This document shows positions 14,946 to 28,423 of a DNA stretch of 64,000 bases, piece after piece (the first letter of the stretch is position 1; every line of letters begins with the position of its first letter). The notes under the pieces are model-generated. The model had not been told where the DNA came from and searched no databases. It saw nothing but the letters and a program-made list of their open reading frames with translations. The position numbers and the translations under genes are program-made. The DNA comes from Paracoccaceae bacterium (lineage in GTDB: Bacteria > Pseudomonadota > Alphaproteobacteria > Rhodobacterales > Rhodobacteraceae): the NCBI GenBank assembly GCA_030750975.1, contig JASMHC010000016.1, positions 62,001 to 126,000 on the forward strand, in the 5' to 3' direction.

Positions 14946-15431
14946 ATGCGCGTTACCAAACGATCCAACCTCGCCCTGAGGGTGCTGATGTTTTGCGGAG
15001 TGAACTCTGGCAGGCTTGTCACCAAGCATGACATCGCCGAGAAATGCAATTCGTCCGAGAACCACCTTGGACAGGTCGTCAATCAACTGGCCCAGCGGGG
15101 TGTCGTCGATACCGTGCGGGGCCGGGGCGGGGGCATTCGGCTTGGACGCCCGGCCTCGGACATCAAGATCGGTCAGATTTTCCGCATGCTCGAAGCGGAT
15201 TCACCGGTTGCGGAATGTTTCGCCGATGTGGACAACACCTGCCCGCTGACATCCGCCTGCCGATTGAAGGCGGCGATTTCGATGGCGGTTGATGCGTTCT
15301 ATGCCAAGCTGGACGAGCTGACATTGCATGACCTGATCGAAGACAACCGGTCGCTTGAGCAGATACTCTGCCTTGATCTTGATCTAAGCTGTGCGGCCGA
15401 GACGCGGCAGGTGGCCTATTCAGCGGGCTGA
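14946..15431 (+). CDS. Rrf2-family Fe-S transcriptional regulator, NsrR-like
   Basis: A 161-residue Rrf2 regulator. The N-terminal winged helix includes NHLGQVVNQLAQRGVV and the wing RGRGGGIRLGRP typical of NsrR. Three cysteines, C-x7-C-x5-C in ECFADVDNTCPLTSACRLK, would hold an Fe-S cluster that senses nitric oxide or redox state; the first spacing is longer than in E. coli NsrR (x4). The ATG at 14946 follows a GAGGA site 5 bases away; a GTG at 14907 is weaker. Its 3' end overlaps soxT by 16 bases. Targets are unknown: sox, formate or denitrification genes are all plausible. Confidence 0.85.
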   Translation: MRVTKRSNLALRVLMFCGVNSGRLVTKHDIAEKCNSSENHLGQVVNQLAQRGVVDTVRGRGGGIRLGRPASDIKIGQIFRMLEADSPVAECFADVDNTCPLTSACRLKAAISMAVDAFYAKLDELTLHDLIEDNRSLEQILCLDLDLSCAAETRQVAYSAG

Positions 15432-16471
15432 AAACCGGCAATCAGATGACGCAATCCCAATGCCGCGCCCGCAAAGATCGCGGCAAAAGTGACCGGTGCG
15501 GAATAGGCAAGCACCGAAAAGGCGGTGATCCCCTGACCAATCGTGCAGCCCAGCGCCACGACAGCCCCGCCGCCCATTAGCATGGCGCCAAAGATCTGGC
15601 GCCGCAGCTCGCGCGGGTCTTCGCAGGCTTCCCAGCGGAAATGGCCCTTGATCAGACTTCCCAGGAACGAGCCGACCAAGACGCCAACGACCGAGCCGAC
15701 CGCAAAGGACAGGCTGCGCCCCGAGGCTGTCATCGTATAAAGGATGGCTTCGCCCAGCGGGGCCGAATAGCTGTGCGACACCACGGGCAGATCTTCAAAG
15801 CCGGTATTGGCAACCCATTGGGTTCCGGCCCAGCCCGAAACGATGGCAAGCCCCACCATGGCGCCCCAAAGGATCGACGAAGGCTTGGCACGGAATTCGG
15901 CAGAGGAAACCATGAAGGCGACAATGGCCGCGCCGATTGCAATGCCGACATAGTTGGCGGAAATGCCGGTGTAATAGCCAATGGCATGGGCGATCCCTTG
16001 CGGAATTTCCGTTGTCGGTTCGATATGCGGGAAGACGTAGATGCGCAAGAATGCAAACGGGCCGGACAGCACGGCATAGGCCGAAACCCCCATCACCAGC
16101 ACGATGACGAAGGCCCGCATGTCGCCGCCGCCCAGTCGGGCGATAGATCCGAAAGCGCAATTCCCCGCCATGGCCATGCCATATCCGAACGCCAGCCCGC
16201 CGAGGATGCTGGCAAGGGGCATCCATGTGACCGAGAAATAGAAAGTCTGTCCGATATTCAACAGGCCGGTCTGGCTTAGAATGAAGGTGCCCAGAATGGC
16301 GCTGCCGATGGCCATTCCCCACATCCGCATCCGCAGATCGCTTTGGGCATAAAGAAGGTCTTCGATGGCCCCCATGGTGCAAAACCGCCCCAAACGCGCG
16401 GCCAGCCCGAGGACCAGACCTCCGCCAAGTCCGATCAGCGCAACAATCGTTGTTTCCGGTAGAAACTCCAT
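15416..16471 (-). CDS. soxT: YeeE/YedE-family sulfur transporter SoxT (TsuA-like)
   Basis: A 351-residue multi-spanning inner-membrane protein of the YeeE/YedE family, which imports thiosulfate or related sulfur. Conserved cysteine motifs are visible: RFCTMGAIED near the N-terminus, GNCAFGSIARLGGGD in the middle and GCTIGQGITAFS near the C-terminus, matching the thiosulfate-relay cysteines described for TsuA. The ATG at 16471 begins MEFLPETT; the open frame continues upstream to 16645 inside the regulator gene and is not coding. Transcribed with soxR and soxS as the left arm of the sox locus. Confidence 0.88.
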   Translation of the reverse strand: MEFLPETTIVALIGLGGGLVLGLAARLGRFCTMGAIEDLLYAQSDLRMRMWGMAIGSAILGTFILSQTGLLNIGQTFYFSVTWMPLASILGGLAFGYGMAMAGNCAFGSIARLGGGDMRAFVIVLVMGVSAYAVLSGPFAFLRIYVFPHIEPTTEIPQGIAHAIGYYTGISANYVGIAIGAAIVAFMVSSAEFRAKPSSILWGAMVGLAIVSGWAGTQWVANTGFEDLPVVSHSYSAPLGEAILYTMTASGRSLSFAVGSVVGVLVGSFLGSLIKGHFRWEACEDPRELRRQIFGAMLMGGGAVVALGCTIGQGITAFSVLAYSAPVTFAAIFAGAALGLRHLIAGFQPAE

Positions 16472-16529
16472 GCCATCCCCCCTTGTTCCGATATGAACCG
16501 CGTCAGGGGACCATAGCTGCCGCTTTTGG

Positions 16530-16865
16530 TCAATCCTCGCCGCAGAAAAGTTCGTAGACCGTTTCGAGGATTTTCTGGGGCCGGTTGTCTGCGAGACGAT
16601 AATAGATGGCCTTGCCTTCACGCCTTGGAACCACCAGACCCTCAAGCCGCAGACGCGACAATTGCTGTGACACGGCGGCCTGACGCGCTGACAAAAGCTC
16701 TTCCAGTTCGGTGACGGATTTTTCGCCTGTTACCAGATGGCAAAGGATCACCATTCTTCCCTCGTGGCTTAGTGCCTTAAGGAAGTTGCTTGCCCGTGTG
16801 GCGTTGTCGATAAGCGTGTCCAGTTCGGCGTCGCTCATCCCTGGCTCGATTTGTGGCAGTCCCAT
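16530..16865 (-). CDS. soxR: ArsR-family sulfur-responsive repressor SoxR (SqrR/BigR/YgaV type)
   Basis: A 111-residue winged-helix repressor. The recognition helix region is SARQAAVSQQLSRLRLEGLV. Two cysteines, Cys42 (VILCHLV) and Cys108 (ELFCGED), sit where SqrR and BigR have the pair that forms a tetrasulfide or disulfide with persulfides, so it is very likely a reactive-sulfur sensor. Lies between soxT and soxS, as in other sox clusters. Inverted repeats at 17353-17373 and 18736-18755 are its candidate operators. This is not the MerR-type SoxR of superoxide stress. Confidence 0.9.
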   Translation of the reverse strand: MGLPQIEPGMSDAELDTLIDNATRASNFLKALSHEGRMVILCHLVTGEKSVTELEELLSARQAAVSQQLSRLRLEGLVVPRREGKAIYYRLADNRPQKILETVYELFCGED

Positions 16866-16910
16866 TTTTGTTACCTCTCAGCGTCCGTGGTGCCGCCTGG
16901 CCGTCAAATA

Positions 16911-17324
16911 TCAAGTCCCCGTCTTTTCATGCGGATGGATGTGATCCCCAGATTGCCGGAATTCTGTCGTGTCCTCTAGCAGTTTCTCCAGAATTGGCCA
17001 GAAGAAATCCTCGCCGTTGTAGCCCAGAATACGCCCGACTTCCTGACCATCATCGACGATGACAAAGGTTGGCGTGTACACAACGGGCTGCGTATACCCC
17101 CCTTCGAACGGGGCTTCTTCGCTGATGTCGATAATCGTTACCGGCGCAAATTTACCGGCTTCGGTCTTTGGGTAAATGGGGCCAATAACCCGTTTCCATT
17201 CAATGCAGTAGGAACAGCCGGGGCTTTCCACCATCAACAGTTCCGCGCCTTGCGCGGGGGCCGCAACCAGCCATGCGCCAAACGCAGCGGCGACGGCAGT
17301 TCCTGATCGAAAAACAAACTTCAT
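16911..17324 (-). CDS. soxS: Periplasmic thioredoxin-like SoxS
   Basis: A 137-residue thioredoxin-fold protein with a signal peptide ending near AAPAQGA. The redox motif is CSYC in MVESPGCSYCIEWKRV. In Paracoccus, SoxS keeps SoxYZ active by reducing a wrongly oxidised SoxY cysteine, with electrons from SoxV. It is divergent from soxV, sharing the 59-base control region that contains a perfect inverted repeat, so both arms of the locus can be co-regulated. Confidence 0.88.
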   Translation of the reverse strand: MKFVFRSGTAVAAAFGAWLVAAPAQGAELLMVESPGCSYCIEWKRVIGPIYPKTEAGKFAPVTIIDISEEAPFEGGYTQPVVYTPTFVIVDDGQEVGRILGYNGEDFFWPILEKLLEDTTEFRQSGDHIHPHEKTGT

Positions 17325-17352
17325 TTGACCTGCTCCTGTCCGACAACGTAAT

Positions 17353-17373
17353 TTGAATATGTGAATTATTCAA
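17353..17373. promoter_or_regulatory. Perfect inverted repeat, candidate SoxR operator between soxS and soxV
   Basis: TTGAATA-N7-TATTCAA is a perfect 7-base inverted repeat in the soxS-soxV divergent region, 11 bases before the soxV start. AT-rich inverted repeats of this type are bound by SqrR/BigR-class ArsR repressors. The position would let bound repressor block expression to both sides. Motif and position are seen; the bound protein is inferred. Confidence 0.65.
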
Positions 17374-17383
17374 GGATTGGATT

Positions 17384-18121
17384 ATGTTCGAGATTTCCTT
17401 CGCGGGTGCTGCCCTTGCTGGGATTTTGTCCTTTTTCACGCCTTGCGTTCTTCCGATGGTCCCGTTTTACCTAAGTTACATGGCCGGAATATCCATGTCT
17501 GAACTGAACGATAAGGGGGAAATCTCGGCAGGCGCGCAATCGCGTTTGCTGGTATCTGCGGTCTTTTTTGCCTTGGGCGTGACGTCGATTTTCGTGCTGT
17601 TGGGCATGGGGGCGACGGCCTTGGGGCAGCTTTTTGCCCAATGGAAAGGGGCGTTGTCCTATCTGGCCGGAGGCATTCTGTTCCTGTTCGGATTGCATTT
17701 TCTGGGCGTGATCCGAATTGGATTTCTGTATCGCGAAGCGCGGCTGAACAGCGGTGCCCAGCCCAGCACTGCGTTCGGCGCCTATGTGATGGGGCTGGCC
17801 TTTGGTTTCGGCTGGACGCCTTGCGTGGGTCCGGCGCTGGCCGCGATCCTGATGATTGCCAGCGGGTTCGGGGATATCTGGAAAGGCGGCGCTTTGTTGT
17901 TTGTCTACGGCATTTCGATGACCGCGCCATTCATCATCGCCGCGATATTCGCCAAGCCCTTTTTGCGCTGGGCGCAGAGAAACCGCAAATATCTGGGGCA
18001 TGTGGAAAAGATCATGGGCGGTATGCTGATCCTGTTTGCCATTCTCATAGTGACCGGCAGTGTGAACCTGATCGCGAATGCGCTGATCCGCTGGTTCCCA
18101 TGGTTTGTAAGTATCGGATAA
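17384..18121 (+). CDS. soxV: CcdA/DsbD-type thiol-disulfide transporter SoxV
   Basis: A 245-residue inner-membrane protein with six predicted helices that carries reducing equivalents from cytoplasmic thioredoxin to periplasmic SoxW and SoxS. The paired redox cysteines are in FFTPCVLPMVPFY (near residue 26) and GWTPCVGPALAA (near residue 147), the CcdA signature. It starts the plus-strand sox operon, 14 bases before soxW. A cytochrome c maturation CcdA is the main alternative, but the sox context decides. Confidence 0.9.
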   Translation: MFEISFAGAALAGILSFFTPCVLPMVPFYLSYMAGISMSELNDKGEISAGAQSRLLVSAVFFALGVTSIFVLLGMGATALGQLFAQWKGALSYLAGGILFLFGLHFLGVIRIGFLYREARLNSGAQPSTAFGAYVMGLAFGFGWTPCVGPALAAILMIASGFGDIWKGGALLFVYGISMTAPFIIAAIFAKPFLRWAQRNRKYLGHVEKIMGGMLILFAILIVTGSVNLIANALIRWFPWFVSIG

Positions 18122-18134
18122 GGGGGACAGAAAA

Positions 18135-18689
18135 ATGAAAAGGCTTATCACATCATTGCTGGCATTCGCGATTTCCGTCTCGGTGGCGGTGGCGGCCGAG
18201 TTGGGCGATGACGGTCTTTATAAAACCGATTGGATGCGGGACACGTTTCTTGATCTGCGCGAGGATCTGGCCGAGGCGAATGCCGAGGGCAAACGGTTCG
18301 CCATCATCGTCGAGCAACGCGGATGCATCTATTGCAAGAAAATGCACGAGGAAGTTTTCCCCGAACCCGAAATCGCGACCCTCATCTCGGATAATTTCTT
18401 CATCATTCAGCTGAACATGTTTGGCGACCGCGAGGTGACGGATTTTGACGGTGTGACCATGTCCGAGAAAGAGATGATGTTTCGCTGGGCGGTGAACTAT
18501 ACACCGACATTGCTGTTTTTCCCGACAGACGTGCCCGAAGGTTTGAACGCGCGTCAGGCAGCGGTTGCGCAAATGGCCGGCGCATTTGGCAAAACCACGA
18601 CTTATGCGACCTTCGACTGGATTTTGAAGGAAGGCTACGCCAACGGCGTATCGCTGCAAAAGCACGTCGCAACCATCGCAAATCGCTGA
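18135..18689 (+). CDS. soxW: Periplasmic thioredoxin SoxW
   Basis: A 184-residue thioredoxin-like protein with a signal peptide ending near VSVAVAA. The active site is CIYC in EQRGCIYCKKMHEEVF, a form common in SoxW. It takes electrons from SoxV and keeps periplasmic Sox thiols reduced. The plus-strand gene follows soxV closely with a GGGGGA ribosome-binding site and is followed by a 144-base regulatory gap before soxX. Confidence 0.88.
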   Translation: MKRLITSLLAFAISVSVAVAAELGDDGLYKTDWMRDTFLDLREDLAEANAEGKRFAIIVEQRGCIYCKKMHEEVFPEPEIATLISDNFFIIQLNMFGDREVTDFDGVTMSEKEMMFRWAVNYTPTLLFFPTDVPEGLNARQAAVAQMAGAFGKTTTYATFDWILKEGYANGVSLQKHVATIANR

Positions 18690-18755: not shown

Positions 18756-18833
18756 GTTGTTGCGATAATCCGGGCTGTGGCCTACGGTATACGAAGCTAA
18801 CCGTGCCAAGAATGGTAGCCAATGGGAGGAAAC

Positions 18834-19313
18834 ATGAGGCTGACTAAAATAACAACGGTCGCCGCAGTGCTTACTGCAGGCGCCGCAGTCGCAGAGATCG
18901 TCGCTCCGGGTGATGTTGTCTTTGACGAATATGGAGCAATCGAAAAGTCCCTGACGGGTGTCGCCGGTGATCCGGCGAATGGTGAAAAAATCATGGTCAC
19001 CAAATCCAAGGGGAATTGTATTGCCTGTCACGAGGTGACAGCGCTGGATTACGCGCCGTTCCACGGTGAAGTCGGCCCGATCCTGGATGGTGTCGGTTCG
19101 CGTTGGAACGAAGCCGAGCTGCGGGGCATAATTGCCTTCGCCAAGATGACCTATGAGGGTTCGATGATGCCGAACTTCTACCAGGTCGAAGGCTTTATCC
19201 GCCCGGGCGATGGTTTCACCGGCAAGGCAGGCACCGAACCGCTGCCGCCGCTGCTGGCCGCACAGGAAATCGAAGACGTTGTGGCGTATCTGCTCACTCT
19301 TGAAGACGAGTGA
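18834..19313 (+). CDS. soxX: Sulfur-oxidising c-type cytochrome SoxX
   Basis: A 159-residue periplasmic monohaem cytochrome, partner of SoxA in the complex that attaches thiosulfate to SoxY. Signal peptide about residues 1-20 (cleavage after AAVA). The haem motif CIACH is at 62-66, and Met ligand candidates lie in MTYEGSMMPNF. The ATG at 18834 follows a GGGAGGA site; an in-frame ATG at 18822 overlaps that site and is rejected. First structural gene of the sox operon. Confidence 0.93.
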   Translation: MRLTKITTVAAVLTAGAAVAEIVAPGDVVFDEYGAIEKSLTGVAGDPANGEKIMVTKSKGNCIACHEVTALDYAPFHGEVGPILDGVGSRWNEAELRGIIAFAKMTYEGSMMPNFYQVEGFIRPGDGFTGKAGTEPLPPLLAAQEIEDVVAYLLTLEDE

Positions 19314-19342
19314 TCAGGGACATCTACACTAAGGAGTTTACT

Positions 19343-19759
19343 ATGGAATTCACAAGACGTGACACTCTGGCGCTTGGGCTTGGCGCAGCGGCGCTGACCG
19401 TGCTGCCGATCCGGGCCGTTGCCGCCTGGGACGACGTGATCACCGCCTTCACTGGCGGCGCAGAGGTGGGCGAGGGCGGTCTGACGCTGACCGCACCTGA
19501 AATCGCGGAAAACGGAAACACGGTTCCGGTCTCGGTCGATGCGCCCGGCGCGGCGGCGATCATGATCGTGGCAACGGGCAACCCGACCCCCAATGTGGCC
19601 ACCTTCAATTTTGGTGAGCTTGCGGGATCGCAGTCGGCATCAACCCGCATCCGCCTTGCCGGAACCCAGGACGTTGTGGCCGTCGCCCGCATGGCGGATG
19701 GCAGCTTTGTCCAGACGCAATCGACCGTAAAAGTCACCATCGGCGGCTGCGGCGGCTAA
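19343..19759 (+). CDS. soxY: Thiosulfate carrier subunit SoxY
   Basis: A 138-residue periplasmic protein that carries sulfur intermediates covalently on a C-terminal swinging arm. The C-terminus ends in the diagnostic GGCGG. The N-terminus has a twin-arginine signal (TRRDTLALGLGAAAL) ending near AVAA, consistent with export as a folded SoxYZ pair. The start at 19343 has AAGGAG 6 bases ahead; the frame is open back to 19310, overlapping soxX, but that start is poorer. Confidence 0.95.
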   Translation: MEFTRRDTLALGLGAAALTVLPIRAVAAWDDVITAFTGGAEVGEGGLTLTAPEIAENGNTVPVSVDAPGAAAIMIVATGNPTPNVATFNFGELAGSQSASTRIRLAGTQDVVAVARMADGSFVQTQSTVKVTIGGCGG

Positions 19760-19779
19760 AGTTCAAGGAGACAGAAACA

Positions 19780-20109
19780 ATGGCAATTGGTGTAAAACCC
19801 CGCGTTAAGGCTCCGAAAACGGCTGAAGTCGGCGAAGTGGTGACGATCAAGACTTTGATCAGTCACAAAATGGAATCGGGACAACGCAAAGATGGTGACG
19901 GCAACGTCATTCCACGCTCGATCATCCACCGGTTTACTTGTGATTATAACGGCGTGAACGTCATTGATGTGGAAATGCATCCGGCGATTTCGACCAACCC
20001 GTATTTCGAGTTCGAGGCCACGATCCCGGAAGCGGGCGACATGGTCTTCACCTGGTATGACGACGACGGTGACGTCTACACGACGACCAAAACGGTCGCA
20101 ATCGGCTAA
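19780..20109 (+). CDS. soxZ: Thiosulfate carrier complex subunit SoxZ
   Basis: A 109-residue immunoglobulin-like protein that pairs with SoxY. It begins MAIGVKPRVKAPKTAEVGEV and includes HPAISTNPYFEF, both typical. No signal peptide: it is exported by riding with the Tat-targeted SoxY. It starts 20 bases after soxY with an AAGGAG site. Confidence 0.94.
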   Translation: MAIGVKPRVKAPKTAEVGEVVTIKTLISHKMESGQRKDGDGNVIPRSIIHRFTCDYNGVNVIDVEMHPAISTNPYFEFEATIPEAGDMVFTWYDDDGDVYTTTKTVAIG

Positions 20110-20162
20110 TAGCCAAACCCTTGTCCCTTTTGGGGCAGGGGGACGCTAAGGGAGGAAAAATA

Positions 20163-21023
20163 ATGAAAATCAAAACATTGTCCGCGATTGCAGCCATGCT
20201 GGTCTCAACCCCGTTCGTGGCTGTTGCAGATGAAGCAGACAAGGACGCGAACCTGGTCGTCAATGGCGAGGTCGAGCTGGTAACACGCGCGCCGGCGCCG
20301 GCCCATCTCGAGGGGGCTGTGGACGAGGTCATTTCAGGCTGGCTTTTCCGCACTTCGGAAACGCAATCCCTGCAAATGGACGATTTTGACAATCCGGGCA
20401 TGATCTTCGTGGATCAGGCGATGGATGACTGGGGCACAGCTGTGGGATCCGAAGGCAAATCCTGCGCTGACTGTCACGGCGCTGTCGAGGACAGCATGGA
20501 AGGTGTCCGGGCCGTCTATCCCAAGTGGAACGAAACCGCTGGTGAAGTCCGCACAGTGGCTCAGATGATCAATGAATGCCGCACGGATCGTATGGGCGCG
20601 GACGCTTTGGGTTACACCAGCGCCGCGATGGCGCGTATGGAGGCCCTGATCTCGATGCAGTCGCGCGGCATGCCTGTGAACGTCGCGATCGACGGACCGG
20701 CGCAAGAGACCTGGGAGTGGGGTAAAGAGCTTTACTATACCCGCACCGGCCAGTTGCAGATGTCCTGCGCAAACTGTCACGAGGATAATTACGGCAACAA
20801 TATCCGCGCAGACCACCTGTCGCAGGGTCAGATCAACGGTTTCCCGGTTTACCGCCTGAAGAACGCCAAGCTGACCACGCCGCATGGCCGCTTCAAGGGC
20901 TGTGTCCGTGACACCCGCGCCGAAACCTATGGCACCGGCAGCGATGCATTTGTTGCGCTCGAGCTTTACGTGGCATCCCGAGGCAACGGGCTTTCGGTCG
21001 AAGGGGTTTCGGTCAGAAACTAA
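20163..21023 (+). CDS. soxA: Sulfur-oxidation dihaem cytochrome SoxA
   Basis: A 286-residue periplasmic cytochrome that, with SoxX, conjugates thiosulfate to the SoxY cysteine. Signal peptide about residues 1-22. Two haem motifs are present, CADCH at 101-105 and CANCH at 202-206, so this is the dihaem form as in Paracoccus. Cys247 in FKGCVRDTRAE is the active-site cysteine that ligates haem as a persulfide. The ATG at 20163 follows GGGAGG; an open frame to 20121 has no site. A strong terminator follows. Confidence 0.95.
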   Translation: MKIKTLSAIAAMLVSTPFVAVADEADKDANLVVNGEVELVTRAPAPAHLEGAVDEVISGWLFRTSETQSLQMDDFDNPGMIFVDQAMDDWGTAVGSEGKSCADCHGAVEDSMEGVRAVYPKWNETAGEVRTVAQMINECRTDRMGADALGYTSAAMARMEALISMQSRGMPVNVAIDGPAQETWEWGKELYYTRTGQLQMSCANCHEDNYGNNIRADHLSQGQINGFPVYRLKNAKLTTPHGRFKGCVRDTRAETYGTGSDAFVALELYVASRGNGLSVEGVSVRN

Positions 21024-21031
21024 GACAACCA

Positions 21032-21067
21032 AACCCGCATCCGGCAGATACGGATGCGGGTTTTTTA
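21032..21067 (+). terminator. Rho-independent terminator after soxA
   Basis: AACCCGCATCCG and CGGATGCGGGTT form a 12-base stem with a 7-base loop, followed directly by a T run. It separates soxXYZA from soxB and would reduce transcription of soxBCD unless read through or restarted by a promoter near 21068-21124. Confidence 0.85.
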
Positions 21068-21080
21068 TACAGAAACATAT

Positions 21081-21100
21081 GCACAAAAGTGAATTTGTGC
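21081..21100. promoter_or_regulatory. Perfect inverted repeat upstream of soxB
   Basis: GCACAAA-N6-TTTGTGC is a perfect 7-base inverted repeat between the soxA terminator and the soxB start (24 bases away). It differs from the ATTC-N8-GAAT type before soxX. It may be an operator for a second regulator or a promoter-proximal hairpin; which protein binds is unknown. Confidence 0.5.
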
Positions 21101-21124
21101 GACTTAACCTGAAAGGTCACGCAG

Positions 21125-22822
21125 ATGATTTCGCGTCGGGATTTTCTTCAAACCAGCATGGCGGCATCGGCCATTGTCGGTGGTTCTGGGTTTGGAAATT
21201 GGGCGGCCCTTGCCGCACAGCAAAGCCTGACGCAGGATCAGCTTTTACAGTTTGACACTTTCGGGAATGTCTCGCTGATCCATGTGACCGATATTCACGG
21301 CCAGCTGAAGCCGATCTATTTCCGCGAGCCTGAAATCAACCTTGGCGTGGGGGCGGCGTCTGGTCAGATGCCGCATATCACCGGCGCGGATTTCCGCCGC
21401 GCCTATGGTATCGCTGACGGGTCGGCATCGCATTACGCGCTGACCTATAACGATTTCACCGCTCTGGCGCAGACCTATGGCAAGGTTGGTGGTCTGGACC
21501 GTGTGTCAACCGTGATCAATTCGATCCGCGCCGATCGCCCGGACGCGCTGCTTCTGGACGGGGGGGATACTTGGCACGGGTCTTATACGTGCTACCACAC
21601 GCAAGCGCAGGATATGGTCAATGTCATGAACGCGCTCAAGCCCGATGCGATGACCTTTCATTGGGAATTCACGCTTGGGTCTGATCGTATCAGCGAACTG
21701 GTCGGCGGCCTTCCTTACGCGGCTTTGGGTCAGAACATTTTTGACGCCGAATGGGACGAACCGGCCGAGCTGTTCAGCCCGTATAAATTCTTTGAACGTG
21801 GCGGCGTTAAAATCGGAGTGATCGGACAGGCCTTTCCCTATATGCCAATCGCCAACCCCGGCTGGATGTTCCCGGAATATTCTTTCGGTATCCGCGACCA
21901 GCGCATGCAGGAAATGGTCGATGAGGTTCGCGCCATGGGGGCCGAGCTGGTGGTTGTGCTGTCGCATAACGGTTTCGATGTGGACAAGAAAATGGCCGGA
22001 CGGGTGCAGGGCATTGATGTCATCCTGTCGGGTCATACCCATGATGCGCTGCCTGAGCCGGTGCAGGTGGGGCAGACGTTTGTCATCGCCTCGGGGTCTA
22101 ACGGCAAGTTTGTCAGCCGCGTTGATCTGGATGTGCGCGACGGAAAGATGATGGGTATCCGTCACAAGCTGATCCCGATCTTCTCGGATGTGATCGCCCC
22201 TGATCCGGCGATCACCAGACTGATCGACGAACAACGCGCGCCGTTTGAAACCGAACTGACCGAGGTGATCGGACAGGCCGACGGGCTGCTGTATCGCCGT
22301 GGCAATTTTAACGGCACCTGGGATGATCTGATCTGTCAGGCGCTGATCGAAGAGCGCGACGCCGATATCTCGATGTCGCCGGGTGTGCGCTGGGGGCCGT
22401 CAATCCTGCCAGGCCAGGACATTACCCGCGAAGACATCTGGAACGTCACCTCGATGACCTATCCGAATGCGTATCGCACTGAAATGACCGGTGAATTCAT
22501 TCACGTGATCATGGAAGACGTTGCCGACAACCTGTTCAATGTCGATCCCTATTACCAGCAGGGCGGTGACATGGTGCGCGTTGGCGGCATGGGTTACAAA
22601 ATCGACGTCAGCAAGAAACAGGGCGAGCGGGTGACCGATATGGTCCTGCTGAAAACCGGCGAAAAGATTGACCCGGCCAAGACCTATACAGTGTCGGGAT
22701 GGGCCTCGGTCAATGAAGGCACCGAAGGTCCGCCGATCTGGGATGTGGTTGAAAACTACATCCGTCGCAAGGGCGTTGTCGAAGTCAAAGAGAACACAAG
22801 CGTCAGCTACAGCGGCGCTTAA
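21125..22822 (+). CDS. soxB: Sulfate thiohydrolase SoxB
   Basis: A 565-residue di-manganese enzyme of the 5'-nucleotidase superfamily that releases sulfate from SoxY-bound S-sulfonate. Tat signal MISRRDFLQTSMAASAIVGG. Metal-binding motifs in order: TDIHGQLKP (about 55-63), LDGGDTWHGSYTCY, SHNGFDVD and SGHTHDALPEP. The C-terminal 5'-nucleotidase domain is complete. It follows the soxA terminator, with an inverted repeat just ahead, so it may have its own promoter. Confidence 0.96.
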   Translation: MISRRDFLQTSMAASAIVGGSGFGNWAALAAQQSLTQDQLLQFDTFGNVSLIHVTDIHGQLKPIYFREPEINLGVGAASGQMPHITGADFRRAYGIADGSASHYALTYNDFTALAQTYGKVGGLDRVSTVINSIRADRPDALLLDGGDTWHGSYTCYHTQAQDMVNVMNALKPDAMTFHWEFTLGSDRISELVGGLPYAALGQNIFDAEWDEPAELFSPYKFFERGGVKIGVIGQAFPYMPIANPGWMFPEYSFGIRDQRMQEMVDEVRAMGAELVVVLSHNGFDVDKKMAGRVQGIDVILSGHTHDALPEPVQVGQTFVIASGSNGKFVSRVDLDVRDGKMMGIRHKLIPIFSDVIAPDPAITRLIDEQRAPFETELTEVIGQADGLLYRRGNFNGTWDDLICQALIEERDADISMSPGVRWGPSILPGQDITREDIWNVTSMTYPNAYRTEMTGEFIHVIMEDVADNLFNVDPYYQQGGDMVRVGGMGYKIDVSKKQGERVTDMVLLKTGEKIDPAKTYTVSGWASVNEGTEGPPIWDVVENYIRRKGVVEVKENTSVSYSGA

Positions 22823-22909: not shown

Positions 22910-24193
22910 ATGTCTGATAGCTTCAAGGGGCTAAAGCCCTCGCGTCGTCAATTTTTGGCGGGCGCGGCCTCGGTCGGGGCCGGGGTGTTGGCCACAAGTG
23001 CTGCGAAAGCCGCCGAGGGGGATCCCCTGATCACCGAGGTTCAGGAATGGGCGTCTGGTCTGGGGGAAGGGGTCGACGAAACGCCTTATGGGATGCCGAT
23101 TGAATTTGAAAGCGATGTCATCCGCCGCAATGTGCCGTGGCTGACCGCTGATCCGATCAGCTCGATCAATTTCACGCCGATCCATGCGCTGGACGGTACG
23201 ATCACCCCGCAAGGCTGCGCGTTCGAACGCCATCACTCGGGTGCAATCGAGCTGCGCAAGGAAGATTACCGTTTGATGATCAACGGTCTGGTCGATGCGC
23301 CGCTGGTATTTACATATGACGATCTTGAGCGTTTCCCGCGCGTGAACCACACCTATTTCTGCGAATGCGCGGCGAATACCGGAATGGAATGGGCCGGTGC
23401 CCAGCTGAATGGTGCCCAGTTCACCCATGGTATGATCCATAACATGGAATATTCCGGTGTGACGTTACGCACCCTTCTGGAAGAGGCCGGGCTGACTGCC
23501 GCTGGCGATCTGACCGACAAATGGATTTATGTCGAAGGCGCGGATGCATCATCGAACGGGCGTTCCATACCGATGGAAAAGGCCTTGGACGATTGCATCA
23601 TTGCCTTCAAGGCCAATGGCGAAGCACTGCGGAAAGAGCATGGCTATCCCGTCCGGCTGGTCGTGCCCGGCTGGGAAGGCAATATGTGGGTCAAATGGCT
23701 GCGCCGGATCGAGGTTATGGACGCTCCGGTTCAATCGCGGGAAGAGACCTCGAAATACACCGATACCCTGGCCGATGGCACCAGCCGGAAATGGACCTGG
23801 GAAATGGATGCGAAATCTGTTGTCACCAGCCCCAGCCCTCAATCGCCGATCAAACACGGCACAGGCCCCTTGGTCATAACCGGCCTTGCCTGGAGCGGAC
23901 GCGGTGCGATCACCGGTGTCGATGTGTCCCTTGATGGCGGAATAAACTGGCAGCGTGCCCGGCTTGCGGCCCCGGGCGAACCGATGGCGCTGACCCGTTT
24001 TTATCTGGACATCAACTGGGACGGTTCGGAAATGCTGCTGCAAAGCCGCGCCATTGACGACACCGGATATGTACAGCCGACAAAACAGCAATTGCGGGAT
24101 GTGCGGGGCGAAAACTCGATCTACCACAATAACTGCATCCAGACCTGGTGGGTCCGCACAAACGGGGAGGCTGAGAATGTCGAAGTTTCCTGA
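22910..24193 (+). CDS. soxC: Sulfane dehydrogenase molybdenum subunit SoxC
   Basis: A 427-residue sulfite-oxidase-family molybdoenzyme that, with SoxD, oxidises the outer sulfur on SoxY by six electrons. Tat signal SRRQFLAGAASVGAG. The Moco-binding segment is HTYFCECAANTGMEW, with a cysteine at 151 or 153 as metal ligand. The C-terminal Mo-co dimerisation domain is present. The ribosome-binding site AAGGAG precedes 22910. Presence of soxCD means thiosulfate can be oxidised fully to sulfate without stored sulfur globules. The MoeA-containing fusion gene upstream would supply its cofactor. Confidence 0.95.
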   Translation: MSDSFKGLKPSRRQFLAGAASVGAGVLATSAAKAAEGDPLITEVQEWASGLGEGVDETPYGMPIEFESDVIRRNVPWLTADPISSINFTPIHALDGTITPQGCAFERHHSGAIELRKEDYRLMINGLVDAPLVFTYDDLERFPRVNHTYFCECAANTGMEWAGAQLNGAQFTHGMIHNMEYSGVTLRTLLEEAGLTAAGDLTDKWIYVEGADASSNGRSIPMEKALDDCIIAFKANGEALRKEHGYPVRLVVPGWEGNMWVKWLRRIEVMDAPVQSREETSKYTDTLADGTSRKWTWEMDAKSVVTSPSPQSPIKHGTGPLVITGLAWSGRGAITGVDVSLDGGINWQRARLAAPGEPMALTRFYLDINWDGSEMLLQSRAIDDTGYVQPTKQQLRDVRGENSIYHNNCIQTWWVRTNGEAENVEVS

Positions 24194-24231
24194 CCGTCGC
24201 AATACCTACATGAAGTTTGGGGCATAACGGC

Positions 24232-26091
24232 ATGAGAACGCTTTCTTTATATGCCGGAGCAGGGCTTGGCGCGGCGGTCGTTCTGACGCTCGCCTCGGTT
24301 TATGCCGACCGGAATATTTCGCCGGTTCAGGGTGACTTTTCCGTGATCGGAACCGGCGGATCGAACCCGGACAGTTTGTTGATCGCAAATGGGACGATCC
24401 CTGAACATAGCGGGGTTTTCCGGCTTGGCCGGGTCGCGACCAAAGATGAAATCGCGGCCTGGGATCTGGACATTCTGCCCGATGGCACAGGTCTTCCTGT
24501 TGGCCGGGGCAATGTTGAGGACGGCGAGATGCTGTTTGTAGACTATTGCGCGGTTTGCCACGGTGATTTTGCCGAAGGTGTTGGCAATTGGCCCAAGCTT
24601 GCCGGGGGCGAAGATACGCTGGCCGATGAGGACCCTTTGAAAACTGTCGGGTCCTATTGGCCTTATCTGTCCACGACCTTTGATTATGTGCGCCGGTCGA
24701 TGCCTTTCGGGAATGCGCAAAGCCTGAGCGATGACGAGGTTTATGCCATCGTCGCCTATATCCTTTATTCGAATTATCTGGTCGAAGAGGATTTCGAGCT
24801 GTCGAACGAAACCTTCCTTGGTGTCGAAATGCCGAACGCGGACGGGTTTATCGTCGATGATCGGGCAGAGGCCGAATACGCGATCTGGACCACGGACAGC
24901 GATGCCTATTGCACGGTGGATTGCAAGGACAGCGTGGAAATCACCATGCGGGCGGCGGTTCTGGACGTGACCCCGGAAGAGACCAAGGATCGTCGCATTC
25001 AGGAATTGGTCGATGAAACCGATCCGGATTCGGTGCGCCTGGCCGAGGCGCTGGCCTCGGCTGATCTGCCTGAACATCAAGGGGCATTCGGTCTGGGCCG
25101 CGTGGCGCTGCCCACTGAAATCGCGGCCTGGGATCGGGACATTCTGCCCGATGGCACGGGTCTTCCTGTTGGCCGGGGCAATGTTGAGGACGGCGAGATG
25201 CTGTTTGTCGACTATTGCGCCGTTTGCCACGGCGATTTTGCCGAAGGTGTTGGCAATTGGCCCAAGCTGGCCGGGGGCGAAGACACGCTGGCCGATGAGG
25301 ACCCTTTGAAAACTGTCGGGTCCTATTGGCCTTATCTGTCCACGACCTTCGACTATGTGCGCCGGTCGATGCCATTCGGGAATGCGCAAAGCTTAAGCGA
25401 TGACGAGGTTTATGCCATTGTCGCCTATATCCTTTATTCAAACTATCTGGTCGAAGAGGATTTCGAGCTGTCGAACGAAACCTTCCTTGGCGTCGATATG
25501 CCGAACGCGGACGGGTTTATCGTCGATGACCGGGCAGAGGCCGAATATGCGATCTGGACCACGGACAGCGATGCCTATTGCACTGTGGATTGCAAGGACA
25601 GCGTAGAGATTACCATGCGGGCGGCGGTTCTGGACGTGACCCCGGTAGAGACCGAGGCGGAAGAGTTGCAACAGCTTGTCGAAGCAACCGATCCGGATGC
25701 CGGGGGTGCGGCAGAGGTTGCGGCCATGGCAGGCGGCGGGTCTTCGATTGTGATGACCGGCGCGTTTGATGCCGAGCTTGTGGCAAGCGGTGAAAAGGTC
25801 TTCAAAAAGTGTAAGGCCTGCCACCAGATCGGTGCGGGGGCTGAAAACAAATCCGGTCCTCAGTTGAACCAGATTGCCGGTCGCCTGATTGGTGGCGCGG
25901 ACGGGTTTAAGTATTCAGGCGCACTTTCCGGCATGGCCGATCAGGGGCTGATCTGGACGGATGAAGCGCTGGCCGGGTTTTTGAGAAACCCGAAAGCCTA
26001 TGCGAAGGGGACGAAAATGTCTTTCGCGGGTCTGAAGAAAGAAACCGATATTTTGGCGGTCATTGAGTATCTGAAATCCGCCGGACAATGA
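24232..26091 (+). CDS. soxD: Sulfane dehydrogenase cytochrome subunit SoxD with tandemly duplicated haem domain
   Basis: Electron-accepting c-type cytochrome partner of SoxC. Usual SoxD proteins are about 380-400 residues with two haems; this one is 619 residues with three: CAVCH at 106-110, CAVCH at 329-333 and CKACH at 527-531. The N-terminal SoxD domain occurs twice, period 223 residues, nearly identical except for three substitutions in the core. Each copy also keeps a YCTVDCKDS cysteine pair. The C-terminal domain is an ordinary class I cytochrome c. Residues 1-25 form a signal or anchor. The start is taken at ATG 24232; a TTG at 24217 is possible. Confidence 0.93.
   Translation: MRTLSLYAGAGLGAAVVLTLASVYADRNISPVQGDFSVIGTGGSNPDSLLIANGTIPEHSGVFRLGRVATKDEIAAWDLDILPDGTGLPVGRGNVEDGEMLFVDYCAVCHGDFAEGVGNWPKLAGGEDTLADEDPLKTVGSYWPYLSTTFDYVRRSMPFGNAQSLSDDEVYAIVAYILYSNYLVEEDFELSNETFLGVEMPNADGFIVDDRAEAEYAIWTTDSDAYCTVDCKDSVEITMRAAVLDVTPEETKDRRIQELVDETDPDSVRLAEALASADLPEHQGAFGLGRVALPTEIAAWDRDILPDGTGLPVGRGNVEDGEMLFVDYCAVCHGDFAEGVGNWPKLAGGEDTLADEDPLKTVGSYWPYLSTTFDYVRRSMPFGNAQSLSDDEVYAIVAYILYSNYLVEEDFELSNETFLGVDMPNADGFIVDDRAEAEYAIWTTDSDAYCTVDCKDSVEITMRAAVLDVTPVETEAEELQQLVEATDPDAGGAAEVAAMAGGGSSIVMTGAFDAELVASGEKVFKKCKACHQIGAGAENKSGPQLNQIAGRLIGGADGFKYSGALSGMADQGLIWTDEALAGFLRNPKAYAKGTKMSFAGLKKETDILAVIEYLKSAGQ
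24448..24985 (+). repeat. SoxD internal tandem duplication, unit 1 core
   Basis: First copy of the near-identical core within soxD, from the EIAAWD codons to the VTPEET codons. It aligns with 25117-25654 at a constant offset of 669 bases (223 codons). By eye about 25 mismatches occur in roughly 535 bases, nearly all at third codon positions. Weaker similarity continues on both sides, including the linker ending in TDPD. Confidence 0.9.
25117..25654 (+). repeat. SoxD internal tandem duplication, unit 2 core
   Basis: Second copy of the duplicated SoxD haem domain core. The only residue differences from unit 1 in the core are Leu to Arg after AAWD, Glu to Asp in LGVEMPN, and Glu to Val in TPEET. 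The copy is in frame with unit 1 and with the C-terminal cytochrome domain, so the gene is not broken. Confidence 0.9.
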
Positions 26092-26232: not shown

Positions 26233-27084
26233 ATGAGTAAATCCACCGGCATGAACGGCTTGGTCCTGTTCGCAGCCGCCGCGACCGCATCGATTGCAGT
26301 GCTGGGATTGGCATCGATCTTGGCCAGCCAGAGCGTTGTGACCGTCGGCTCGGACTATGCCGAAATGGGTGCGGGCCGATTAAATCCAGACAGCATTTTT
26401 ATGGCCGGCACCAAAGGTGATACCGATCTCAGCCGGGCATCCATGCCCGGTCAGATCGGCGATGCCGACAAGGGTGCGCGGCTTTGGAAAAAATGCGTCG
26501 CGTGCCATCAGATCGGTCCCAATGCCAGCAACCGTGTCGGTCCGCATCTGAATTTCGTGTTTGACCGTAAGGCCGGCACCGTTGCGGATTATCGCTATTC
26601 CGAGGGCATGGCCCGGCTTGGTGACGAGGGTCTGATCTGGTCAATCGGCACGCTGAACACCTTTATTGAAAACCCCAAGGCGGTGGTGCCGGGCACGAGG
26701 ATGAATTTCTTAGGCATGGAAAGCCAGGCCGAGCGGAACGACTTGCTGGCGTTCCTGCGCCAGTTTTCAGACGATCCGTCGAATATCCCCGAAGCTGCGG
26801 CAACCGCGATCCCGCCCGAAGTGACGCTTGCGCCCGAGGTTTTGGCGATGGTCGGGGACCGGGACTATGGCGAGTATCTGGGCAGCGAATGCACAACCTG
26901 CCACCAGCGCGACGGGTCGGATGACGGTATTCCGGCAATTATGGGCTGGCCAGCCAAAGACTTTGTGATCGCAATGCATGCTTACAAACAAAAAATCCGG
27001 GAAAACCCGGTGATGCAATTGATGGCTTCGCGGCTGTCGGATGAAGAGATCGCCGCACTTGCCGCGTATTTTGAGGAGTTCTGA
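26233..27084 (+). CDS. soxE: Dihaem c-type cytochrome SoxE
   Basis: A 283-residue periplasmic or membrane-anchored cytochrome with two haem motifs, CVACH at 88-92 and CTTCH at 220-224. Residues about 8-30 are a hydrophobic signal or anchor. The first haem domain closely resembles the C-terminal domain of SoxD (KKCxACHQIG, DEGLIW, NPKA, GTxMxF), and its leader shares the NPDS pattern with SoxD, so the two are paralogues. SoxE is thought to pair with SoxF or shuttle electrons. Starts at ATG 26233. Confidence 0.85.
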   Translation: MSKSTGMNGLVLFAAAATASIAVLGLASILASQSVVTVGSDYAEMGAGRLNPDSIFMAGTKGDTDLSRASMPGQIGDADKGARLWKKCVACHQIGPNASNRVGPHLNFVFDRKAGTVADYRYSEGMARLGDEGLIWSIGTLNTFIENPKAVVPGTRMNFLGMESQAERNDLLAFLRQFSDDPSNIPEAAATAIPPEVTLAPEVLAMVGDRDYGEYLGSECTTCHQRDGSDDGIPAIMGWPAKDFVIAMHAYKQKIRENPVMQLMASRLSDEEIAALAAYFEEF

Positions 27085-27160
27085 GTAACCAATAACGAGC
27101 CGGAACATAGCGTAAACTCCTAAAGTTCCGGCCAGTGTGATTTTAACAAAGGAGGAACAA

Positions 27161-28423
27161 ATGAATTTAGACAGACGTCGTTTTATAGGGGCTGGTGTGG
27201 CCGTTTCGGCAACCCTTTCCGCGCCGATGGTCATGGGGCAAGGCAAGCCGCGCGTTGTTGTTGTCGGCGGTGGCGCCGGTGGTGCTACGGCGGCGCGTTA
27301 TATCGCCAAGGGGTCGCAAGGCGCCATTGATGTGACGCTTGTTGAGCCGTCGCGCAAATATTACACCTGCTTCTTTTCGAACCTGTATATCGGTGGGTTC
27401 CGCACGCTTTCCAATATCGGTCATACTTATGGCACGCTGGCCGCCGAATACGGTATCAACGTCGTCCATGACTGGGCGATTGGCGTGGATCGTAACGCAA
27501 AAACGGTTTCGTTGGCCGGAGGCGCAAGCCTGCCATATGATCGGCTGGTCCTGTCGCCGGGTATCGATTTTGTCGATGGCGCGGTTCCGGGCTGGGATAT
27601 TTCGGCGCAAAACGCGATGCCGCACGCCTATAAGGCGGGCAGCCAGTCGGAATTGCTGAAAGCGCAGATCGAATCGATGCCGCAGGGCGGTGTTTATTGC
27701 ATGGTCGCGCCACCGAACCCGTATCGCTGTCCTCCGGGACCTTATGAGCGGATTTCGATGGTCGCCCATGTGCTGAAACAGAAAAACCCCACGGCCAAGA
27801 TATTGATTGCCGACCCGAAAGAGAAATTCTCGAAACAGGCTTTGTTCGAAGAAGGCTGGGAAAAGCATTATGGGGGCATGATCGAACGGCTTGGTCCGGA
27901 TTTTGGCGGCAATAATGTTACCGTTGATCCAAAGGCAATGACGGTCGATATCGACGGTGAAGTCGCCAAGGTGGACGTGTGTAACGTCATTCCGGCGATG
28001 AAAGCGGGCCGTATCTGCGAGATGGCGGGCGTGAACGACGGCAATTGGGCACCGACGATCGCCCACACCATGCAAAGCAAGGCGGACGAGAATATCCACA
28101 TTCTTGGCGATGCGGCGGCGCAGGGGGATATGCCGAAATCGGGCTTTTCGGCCAATAGTCAGGCAAAGGTCGCGGCAATGGCCATTCGCGGTGCGTTGAC
28201 CGGTTCGAAGGTCTTCCCTGCGAAGTTTTCGAACACGTGCTGGTCGCTTATCGAAACGGATGACGGTGTCAAAGTCGGCGCCTCCTATGAGGCGACGGAC
28301 GAGAAGATTGCCAAAACTTCGGGGTTTGTTTCGTCCACCGGTGAAGACGCTGCCTTGCGCAAGGCCACTTATGACGAGTCGGTTGGCTGGTATGCGGGCA
28401 TCACGGCAGACATGTTTGGCTGA
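27161..28423 (+). CDS. soxF: Flavocytochrome c sulfide dehydrogenase flavoprotein SoxF
   Basis: A 420-residue FAD protein that can oxidise sulfide and can stimulate the Sox system. Tat-like signal RRRFIGAGVAVSATL, then the dinucleotide fold VVVVGGGAGGATAARYI. The redox cysteines characteristic of the flavocytochrome c family appear as YYTCFFSNLY and FSNTCWSLIE. The C-terminus has the FCSD-type domain. The ATG at 27161 has a strong GGAGGA site; the frame open to 27137 is less likely. Ends the sox operon; a terminator follows. Confidence 0.92.
   Translation: MNLDRRRFIGAGVAVSATLSAPMVMGQGKPRVVVVGGGAGGATAARYIAKGSQGAIDVTLVEPSRKYYTCFFSNLYIGGFRTLSNIGHTYGTLAAEYGINVVHDWAIGVDRNAKTVSLAGGASLPYDRLVLSPGIDFVDGAVPGWDISAQNAMPHAYKAGSQSELLKAQIESMPQGGVYCMVAPPNPYRCPPGPYERISMVAHVLKQKNPTAKILIADPKEKFSKQALFEEGWEKHYGGMIERLGPDFGGNNVTVDPKAMTVDIDGEVAKVDVCNVIPAMKAGRICEMAGVNDGNWAPTIAHTMQSKADENIHILGDAAAQGDMPKSGFSANSQAKVAAMAIRGALTGSKVFPAKFSNTCWSLIETDDGVKVGASYEATDEKIAKTSGFVSSTGEDAALRKATYDESVGWYAGITADMFG

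Follow-up and report, generated by a model that had tools for sequence, protein, structure and literature searches.

The soxD gene described here lies in a 64,000-nucleotide stretch of DNA from a Paracoccaceae bacterium (the whole of which we call the window), and very probably encodes a three-haem variant of SoxD. Its haem-1 domain is present twice, in frame and at a period of 669 bp, ahead of the C-terminal cytochrome domain that is usual in SoxD. The protein has its CxxCH sites at 106, 329 and 527, as the original prediction had it. The open reading frame extends from 24217 to 26091, and translation is likely to begin at the ATG at 24232, which gives a protein of 619 aa and lines up with the MSKSLNLY... 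N-termini of relatives. The features of the gene are as follows.

24232..26091, + strand: soxD, with three CxxCH motifs and a doubled haem-1 unit (ORF; CxxCH count; PDB match)
24241..24315, + strand: N-terminal hydrophobic helix, residues 4-28, a putative membrane anchor or signal (AlphaFold helix; long N-terminus class)
24400..25029, + strand: unit 1, the first haem-1 copy with its homologous flanks (blastn repeat; 2xts_B match)
24448..24984, + strand: near-identical core of unit 1, 179 codons (24 of 537 bases unlike unit 2)
24547..24561, + strand: CxxCH haem site 1, residues 106-110, CAVCH (motif)
24973..25092, + strand: inter-unit linker, residues 248-287 (sequence; low-confidence AlphaFold model)
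25069..25698, + strand: unit 2, the second haem-1 copy with its homologous flanks (blastn repeat; best stretch of the 2xts_B match)
25117..25653, + strand: near-identical core of unit 2 (comparison with unit 1 core)
25216..25230, + strand: CxxCH haem site 2, residues 329-333, CAVCH (motif)
25768..26088, + strand: C-terminal cytochrome c550/c552-like haem domain (Cytochrom_C; NCBIfam; PDB chains)
25810..25824, + strand: CxxCH haem site 3, residues 527-531, CKACH (motif)

The protein is classed as a SoxD variant on homology and gene context, haem number being a usual trait of the family and not its basis; the usual two haem sites give way here to three CxxCH motifs. The best sequence match of the whole protein in the PDB is 2xts_B (E 3.4e-69), from what we take to be the SoxCD structure of Paracoccus pantotrophus with SoxD as chain B. 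Unit 2 provides the best stretch of this match and unit 1 by itself matches the same chain with E 1.5e-66; these matches, together with the position of both units among SoxD units in trees, place each of them as homologous to the SoxD haem-1 domain. Both also carry the CxxCH motif, the conserved haem-1 residues and the RSMPFG methionine, which is presumably a haem ligand, and the CxxCH motifs suggest that haem would be attached at all three sites. The likeness to the P. pantotrophus protein includes, besides the unit sequence, a soxC gene directly upstream, the same operon setting and a second, C-terminal cytochrome domain, whereas that protein has one haem-1 domain and the window SoxD has two, as well as a long anchor-like N-terminus. 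Cytochrom_C matches three stretches of the window protein, and the C-terminal domain has c-550-type NCBIfam matches below cut-off and matches to c552-type PDB chains. Cytochrome c552 and cytochrome cy (PDB 8ed4, 3m97, 6xkx) resemble this domain but do not have it in a SoxC-docking chain; cytochrome cy is a tethered cytochrome that delivers electrons at the membrane.

The gene lies in a sox operon, directly downstream of soxC, with the following neighbours.

18822..22822, + strand: soxX, soxY, soxZ, soxA and soxB (TIGR04485, TIGR04488, TIGR04490, TIGR04484 and TIGR04486, all above cut-off)
22910..24193, + strand: soxC, molybdenum catalytic subunit (TIGR04555, 586 bits, cut-off 420)
26233..27084, + strand: soxE-like dihaem cytochrome (two cytochrome c stretches), which we name SoxE from the Paracoccus gene order
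27137..28423, + strand: soxF-like flavoprotein (ORF; SQR-type NCBIfam matches below cut-off), likewise presumed to be SoxF from gene order

Upstream of these genes, at 15416-18689, the window encodes a Sulf_transp family protein, an ArsR-type regulator, a DsbD/CcdA-type membrane protein and a thioredoxin-like protein, all of which are usual neighbours of sox genes.

The divergence between the two units is almost entirely silent. Their cores differ at 24 of 537 bases, where about 25 of 535 had been predicted, and the three replacing changes (L79R, E199D and E249V in unit-1 numbering) agree with the predicted number, the other 21 being silent. By the Nei-Gojobori method dS is 0.193 and dN 0.0073, a ratio of 0.038, and were changes random over sites, the binomial probability of three or fewer replacing changes among 24 would be 4e-11; both copies thus look to be under purifying selection. 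The flanks of the units are homologous yet far more diverged, with dS about 0.8 on each side against 0.19 in the core. Some 11 of 22 synonymous sites differ in the flanks as opposed to 21 of about 124 in the core (Fisher p 0.0015), a contrast drawn from 31 flank codons, for which a narrower test, restricted to same-residue codons, has p 0.059. The silent sites of the flanks differ between the units at a pS of 0.5, compared with 0.78 between the units of the window and that of G001, a genome of the same genus. Because silent sites too are more diverged in the flanks than in the cores, gene conversion is suggested, and we think it probable that the core has been homogenised in this way. Purifying selection or gene conversion had been offered as alternatives for the near-silent divergence, and signs of each are seen.

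An assembly artefact, in which strain variants or a repeat were wrongly put in tandem, could produce a doubled gene, and the genome is a draft of 22 contigs. The longest run common to the two copies is however 65 bp, which fits inside one short read, and an erroneous tandem join is therefore unlikely; ordinary short reads should separate copies that are not identical over a read length. Diverged flanks beside a near-identical core are not the expected outcome of strain mixing, but are what one would look for if a duplication had later been homogenised in its core. By blastn, the window has no direct repeat longer than 100 bp besides that of soxD, 24400-25029 against 25069-25698 (90.9% identity over 636 aligned columns), and two other assemblies have the same architecture, with a longest common run of 116 bp in one of them (Pacificoceanicola onchidii, P. 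onchidii below). The original reading of the near-silent divergence as an argument against misassembly is borne out by these observations, and we regard an artefact as highly improbable. Single domains in all close relatives, together with absence of the copy from raw reads, had been named as grounds for abandoning the duplication. The first half of this is borne out in so far as G001, of the same genus, carries one unit, its gene order (read by eye) being that of the window; a single unit there is equally compatible with a derived duplication and with an artefact, and doubled genes turn up in other genomes too.

The search for long SoxD proteins in relatives, which the original prediction had proposed, provided these two further cases. 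In P. onchidii XY-301 (NZ_SRXY01000007.1, L036) the unit occurs twice in one 648-aa frame at a period of 208 aa; the copies differ at 25 of 543 bases, with dS 0.203, dN 0.0072 and a ratio of 0.035. In the genome G289 (L160, L191) both units lie in one 737-aa frame at a period of 216 aa and are 81% identical; their silent sites are saturating (dS about 2.2) and dN/dS is 0.075, and we therefore take this doubling to be old and both units to be still constrained. Both proteins resemble the window SoxD in having the haem-1 unit twice in one frame ahead of a c550-like domain; they differ from it in period (223 aa in the window) and in their linkers, and their units group apart from those of the window.

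The G289 protein, unlike that of the window, continues at its C-terminus into the second haem half of a protein like SoxE, a fusion that brings its CxxCH motifs to four; there is no separate frame for that half before the flavoprotein gene, and the fusion perhaps came from a deletion that joined soxD and soxE at their similar c550 domains. A different rearrangement is seen in the SoxD of G018 (L026/L190), which has three CxxCH motifs like the window protein (at 156, 353 and 479) but in which the C-terminal cytochrome domain, not haem-1, is doubled, the reverse of the case described here. The soxD of G010 (L027) has three TGA stops in the matched stretch and is perhaps a decayed gene with only the haem-1 domain left. 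In L187, L188 and L189 (G721, G930 and G1007, of one genus in another alphaproteobacterial family) a cytochrome like SoxD haem-1 heads a frame of 1171-1288 aa. The one of these that was scanned, L189 (2392-6255 and 1458-2759), has a NapH-type ferredoxin match at 393-577, below cut-off, and a NosR match at 632-1279 (798 bits, below the cut-off of 1000), and its neighbour is a SoxC that scores above cut-off. Together these could form a sulfane or sulfite dehydrogenase connected to a NosR-like module on the quinone side.

Doubled SoxD is rare, and the nearest relatives are without it. Among the best 80 of 533 loci (79 distinct frames), 79 have two CxxCH motifs, in keeping with the prediction's statement that a standard SoxD has two haems, and one, P. 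onchidii, is doubled. A draw of 394 genomes from the family included 240 with the unit and nine with two matches, these being the window genome (G000), G289 and seven with separate genes. The order draw (390 genomes, 244 with the unit) holds the tandem of the window genome and no further tandem case, and its seven new two-match genomes all have separate genes; of the eight two-match genomes whose genes were inspected at this step, these seven have separate genes and the exception is P. onchidii. In the class draw (385 genomes, 42 with the unit) both matches lie in one place only in the window's genome. The tandem counts are lower bounds, since the three draws overlap, at most eight candidates were scored per genome, which could let a tandem unit escape, and young repeats can be lost by collapse in short-read assemblies. 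Like G001, the one genome of the same genus as P. onchidii, G671, has a single unit. In other families there are short frames resembling SoxD, some 220-270 aa long, that seem to be without the second, C-terminal cytochrome domain. No doubling was found in the 37 plasmid records that matched; the longest stretch among them, about 1.1 kb, is too short to hold two units and a C-terminal domain.

None of the units in the doubled proteins looks degenerate. The comparison uses 91 positions that are at least 90% conserved across 130 single-unit domains, counted without four long-branch units (L030, L031, L147 and L026). The two window units differ from each other at 0 of the 91, those of P. onchidii at 1 and those of G289 at 5; departures from the consensus number 1 and 1 for the two units in the window, 4 and 3 in P. 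onchidii and 4 and 6 in G289, all within the range of single-unit proteins, whose own departures have a median of 1 and a 90th percentile of 8. By this comparison it seems likely that both heads are functional.

The relationships among the units point to more than one origin. In a tree of 140 units the two from the window form a pair whose next neighbour is the single unit of G001, those of P. onchidii form one within a nine-row group that holds the single unit of G671, and those of G289 pair elsewhere, away from both. The units of each of the three genomes also pair in a second tree of 40 of the 140 units, hand-picked around the doubled cases, in which G289 lies nearer P. onchidii; both trees use 180 columns, many of their deep forks are open, and the placement of G289 differs between them. 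Tests on the 40-unit tree, run after the 140-unit tree had been seen, rejected a clade of all six units (p-AU 0.009) and a clade of the three first units (p-AU 2e-63), but not a common origin of P. onchidii and G289 (p-AU 0.47). With the six units not grouping together, one origin for all of them would call for repeated losses, and at least two independent duplications is the simplest reading. A much older duplication, homogenised genome by genome and lost in most relatives, is formally permissible, with parsimony alone speaking against it. Both window units have a three-residue insertion near a CxxxC motif that is absent in the same-genus relative L037 (whose protein is the same as L014). The duplication in the window probably postdates the divergence from its closest relative known so far.

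The length of the protein before the core falls into two classes, one of 22-33 aa that is signal-peptide-like and one of at least 47 aa with a hydrophobic helix and a tether. The long class accounts for 51 of the 125 rows with a recognisable start (one masked row in it, L142, is probably misplaced), and all three doubled proteins, with 62 aa (the window), 108 aa and 66 aa, are of this anchor-like kind. A link between doubling and anchored SoxDs is thus suggestive only (3 of 3 against 51 of 125, p about 0.07). The N-terminal helix of the window protein would serve as a membrane anchor; it appears at residues 4-28 of an AlphaFold model, in which low-confidence helices are also predicted in the linker (residues 248-261 and 265-276). 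With a mean pLDDT of 67 and a pTM of 0.36, the model is too poor to tell the arrangement of the heads or to discriminate between mechanisms.

SoxCD is described as oxidizing the sulfane sulfur carried on SoxY in a six-electron reaction (PMC9959259, PMC5573963). We suggest that the haem-1 domain, which is presumed to dock on SoxC, the molybdenum subunit, underwent a tandem duplication within the soxD frame, that gene conversion would have kept the central 537 bp alike as the flanks drifted, and that selection would maintain both copies as haem domains. The product may be a membrane-anchored arm that bears a pair of equivalent heads for SoxC docking, together with a single c552-like output domain. 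Electrons from SoxC could enter at either head during oxidation of the sulfane sulfur and go on to the output domain and then to the respiratory chain, and the heads might bridge two SoxC protomers, or alternate or make docking from the membrane more probable. In Paracoccus, the haem-2 domain was reportedly found by Bardischewsky in 2005 to be dispensable for activity, so haem-1 is presumably the domain that takes electrons from SoxC, and the essential domain would then be the one that is doubled in the window. On balance we favour this explanation as a whole, from duplication and core conversion to selection on both copies and two docking heads, and hold to its last element, the equivalence of the heads as opposed to a specialised relay or no gain, tentatively and with slightly less than even confidence.

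The original prediction had put forward a longer electron wire on SoxC, or docking of two SoxC units, as possible. As the two units are nearly identical, equivalent heads are more probable than a relay in which only one of them would dock on SoxC, its partner acting as an extra electron store or as a wire between SoxC and the C-terminal domain. Three haem sites in one chain and six electrons per sulfane sulfur would suit a relay, as would the four CxxCH motifs of the G289 chain with its SoxE-like C-terminus, but a relay predicts changes specific to each unit, and the conserved positions that differ (none in the window, one in P. onchidii) do not provide them; the five in G289 are few, yet leave room for specialisation in that protein. 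We consider a relay improbable. It is less so, though still doubtful, that the duplication brings no gain and recurs as a near-neutral event, the extra head staying clean only as a damaged one would compete for SoxC or misfold, and the repeat being lost again by recombination. Purifying selection can indeed act on both units if a broken head merely poisons the complex, and a transient repeat would accord with the scarcity of tandem genes (two among the 240 unit-bearing genomes of the family draw, and the window genome alone among the 244 and the 42 of the other draws), with the single units in the one same-genus genome available for each of the window and P. onchidii, and with the similar dS of those two cases (0.19 and 0.20), as of one young age class. 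G289 has nevertheless kept both units under constraint through saturating silent divergence, and as recombination easily deletes repeats, such persistence suggests a benefit. Within the favoured explanation of two docking heads, SoxCD being a tetramer with two SoxC protomers, one SoxD might bind both protomers to give a membrane-tethered SoxC2SoxD1 complex that would have another subunit ratio and draw on a common pool of haems during the six-electron step, the layout having apparently arisen in the family on at least two independent occasions; we put this forward as a speculation that is rather unlikely to hold in full.

We found no description of a three-haem or tandem SoxD in the titles and abstract openings brought up by searches of the open-licence literature; a SoxD with three haem sites, both of its heads apparently under selection, occurs in three of the several hundred genomes examined. 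The six-electron step of SoxCD is what lets bacteria take thiosulfate fully to sulfate, and to our knowledge it is not settled how SoxD passes on the six electrons, or why a second haem domain is kept although it is dispensable in Paracoccus. The three cases form a series, from the near-identical whole units of P. onchidii through the homogenised core and drifted flanks of the window to the old, diverged units of G289. Natural doubling of the SoxC-docking domain, with both copies intact and apparently on more than one occasion, would provide ready-made variants for asking which is limiting for the enzyme, the docking of haem-1 or the export of electrons.
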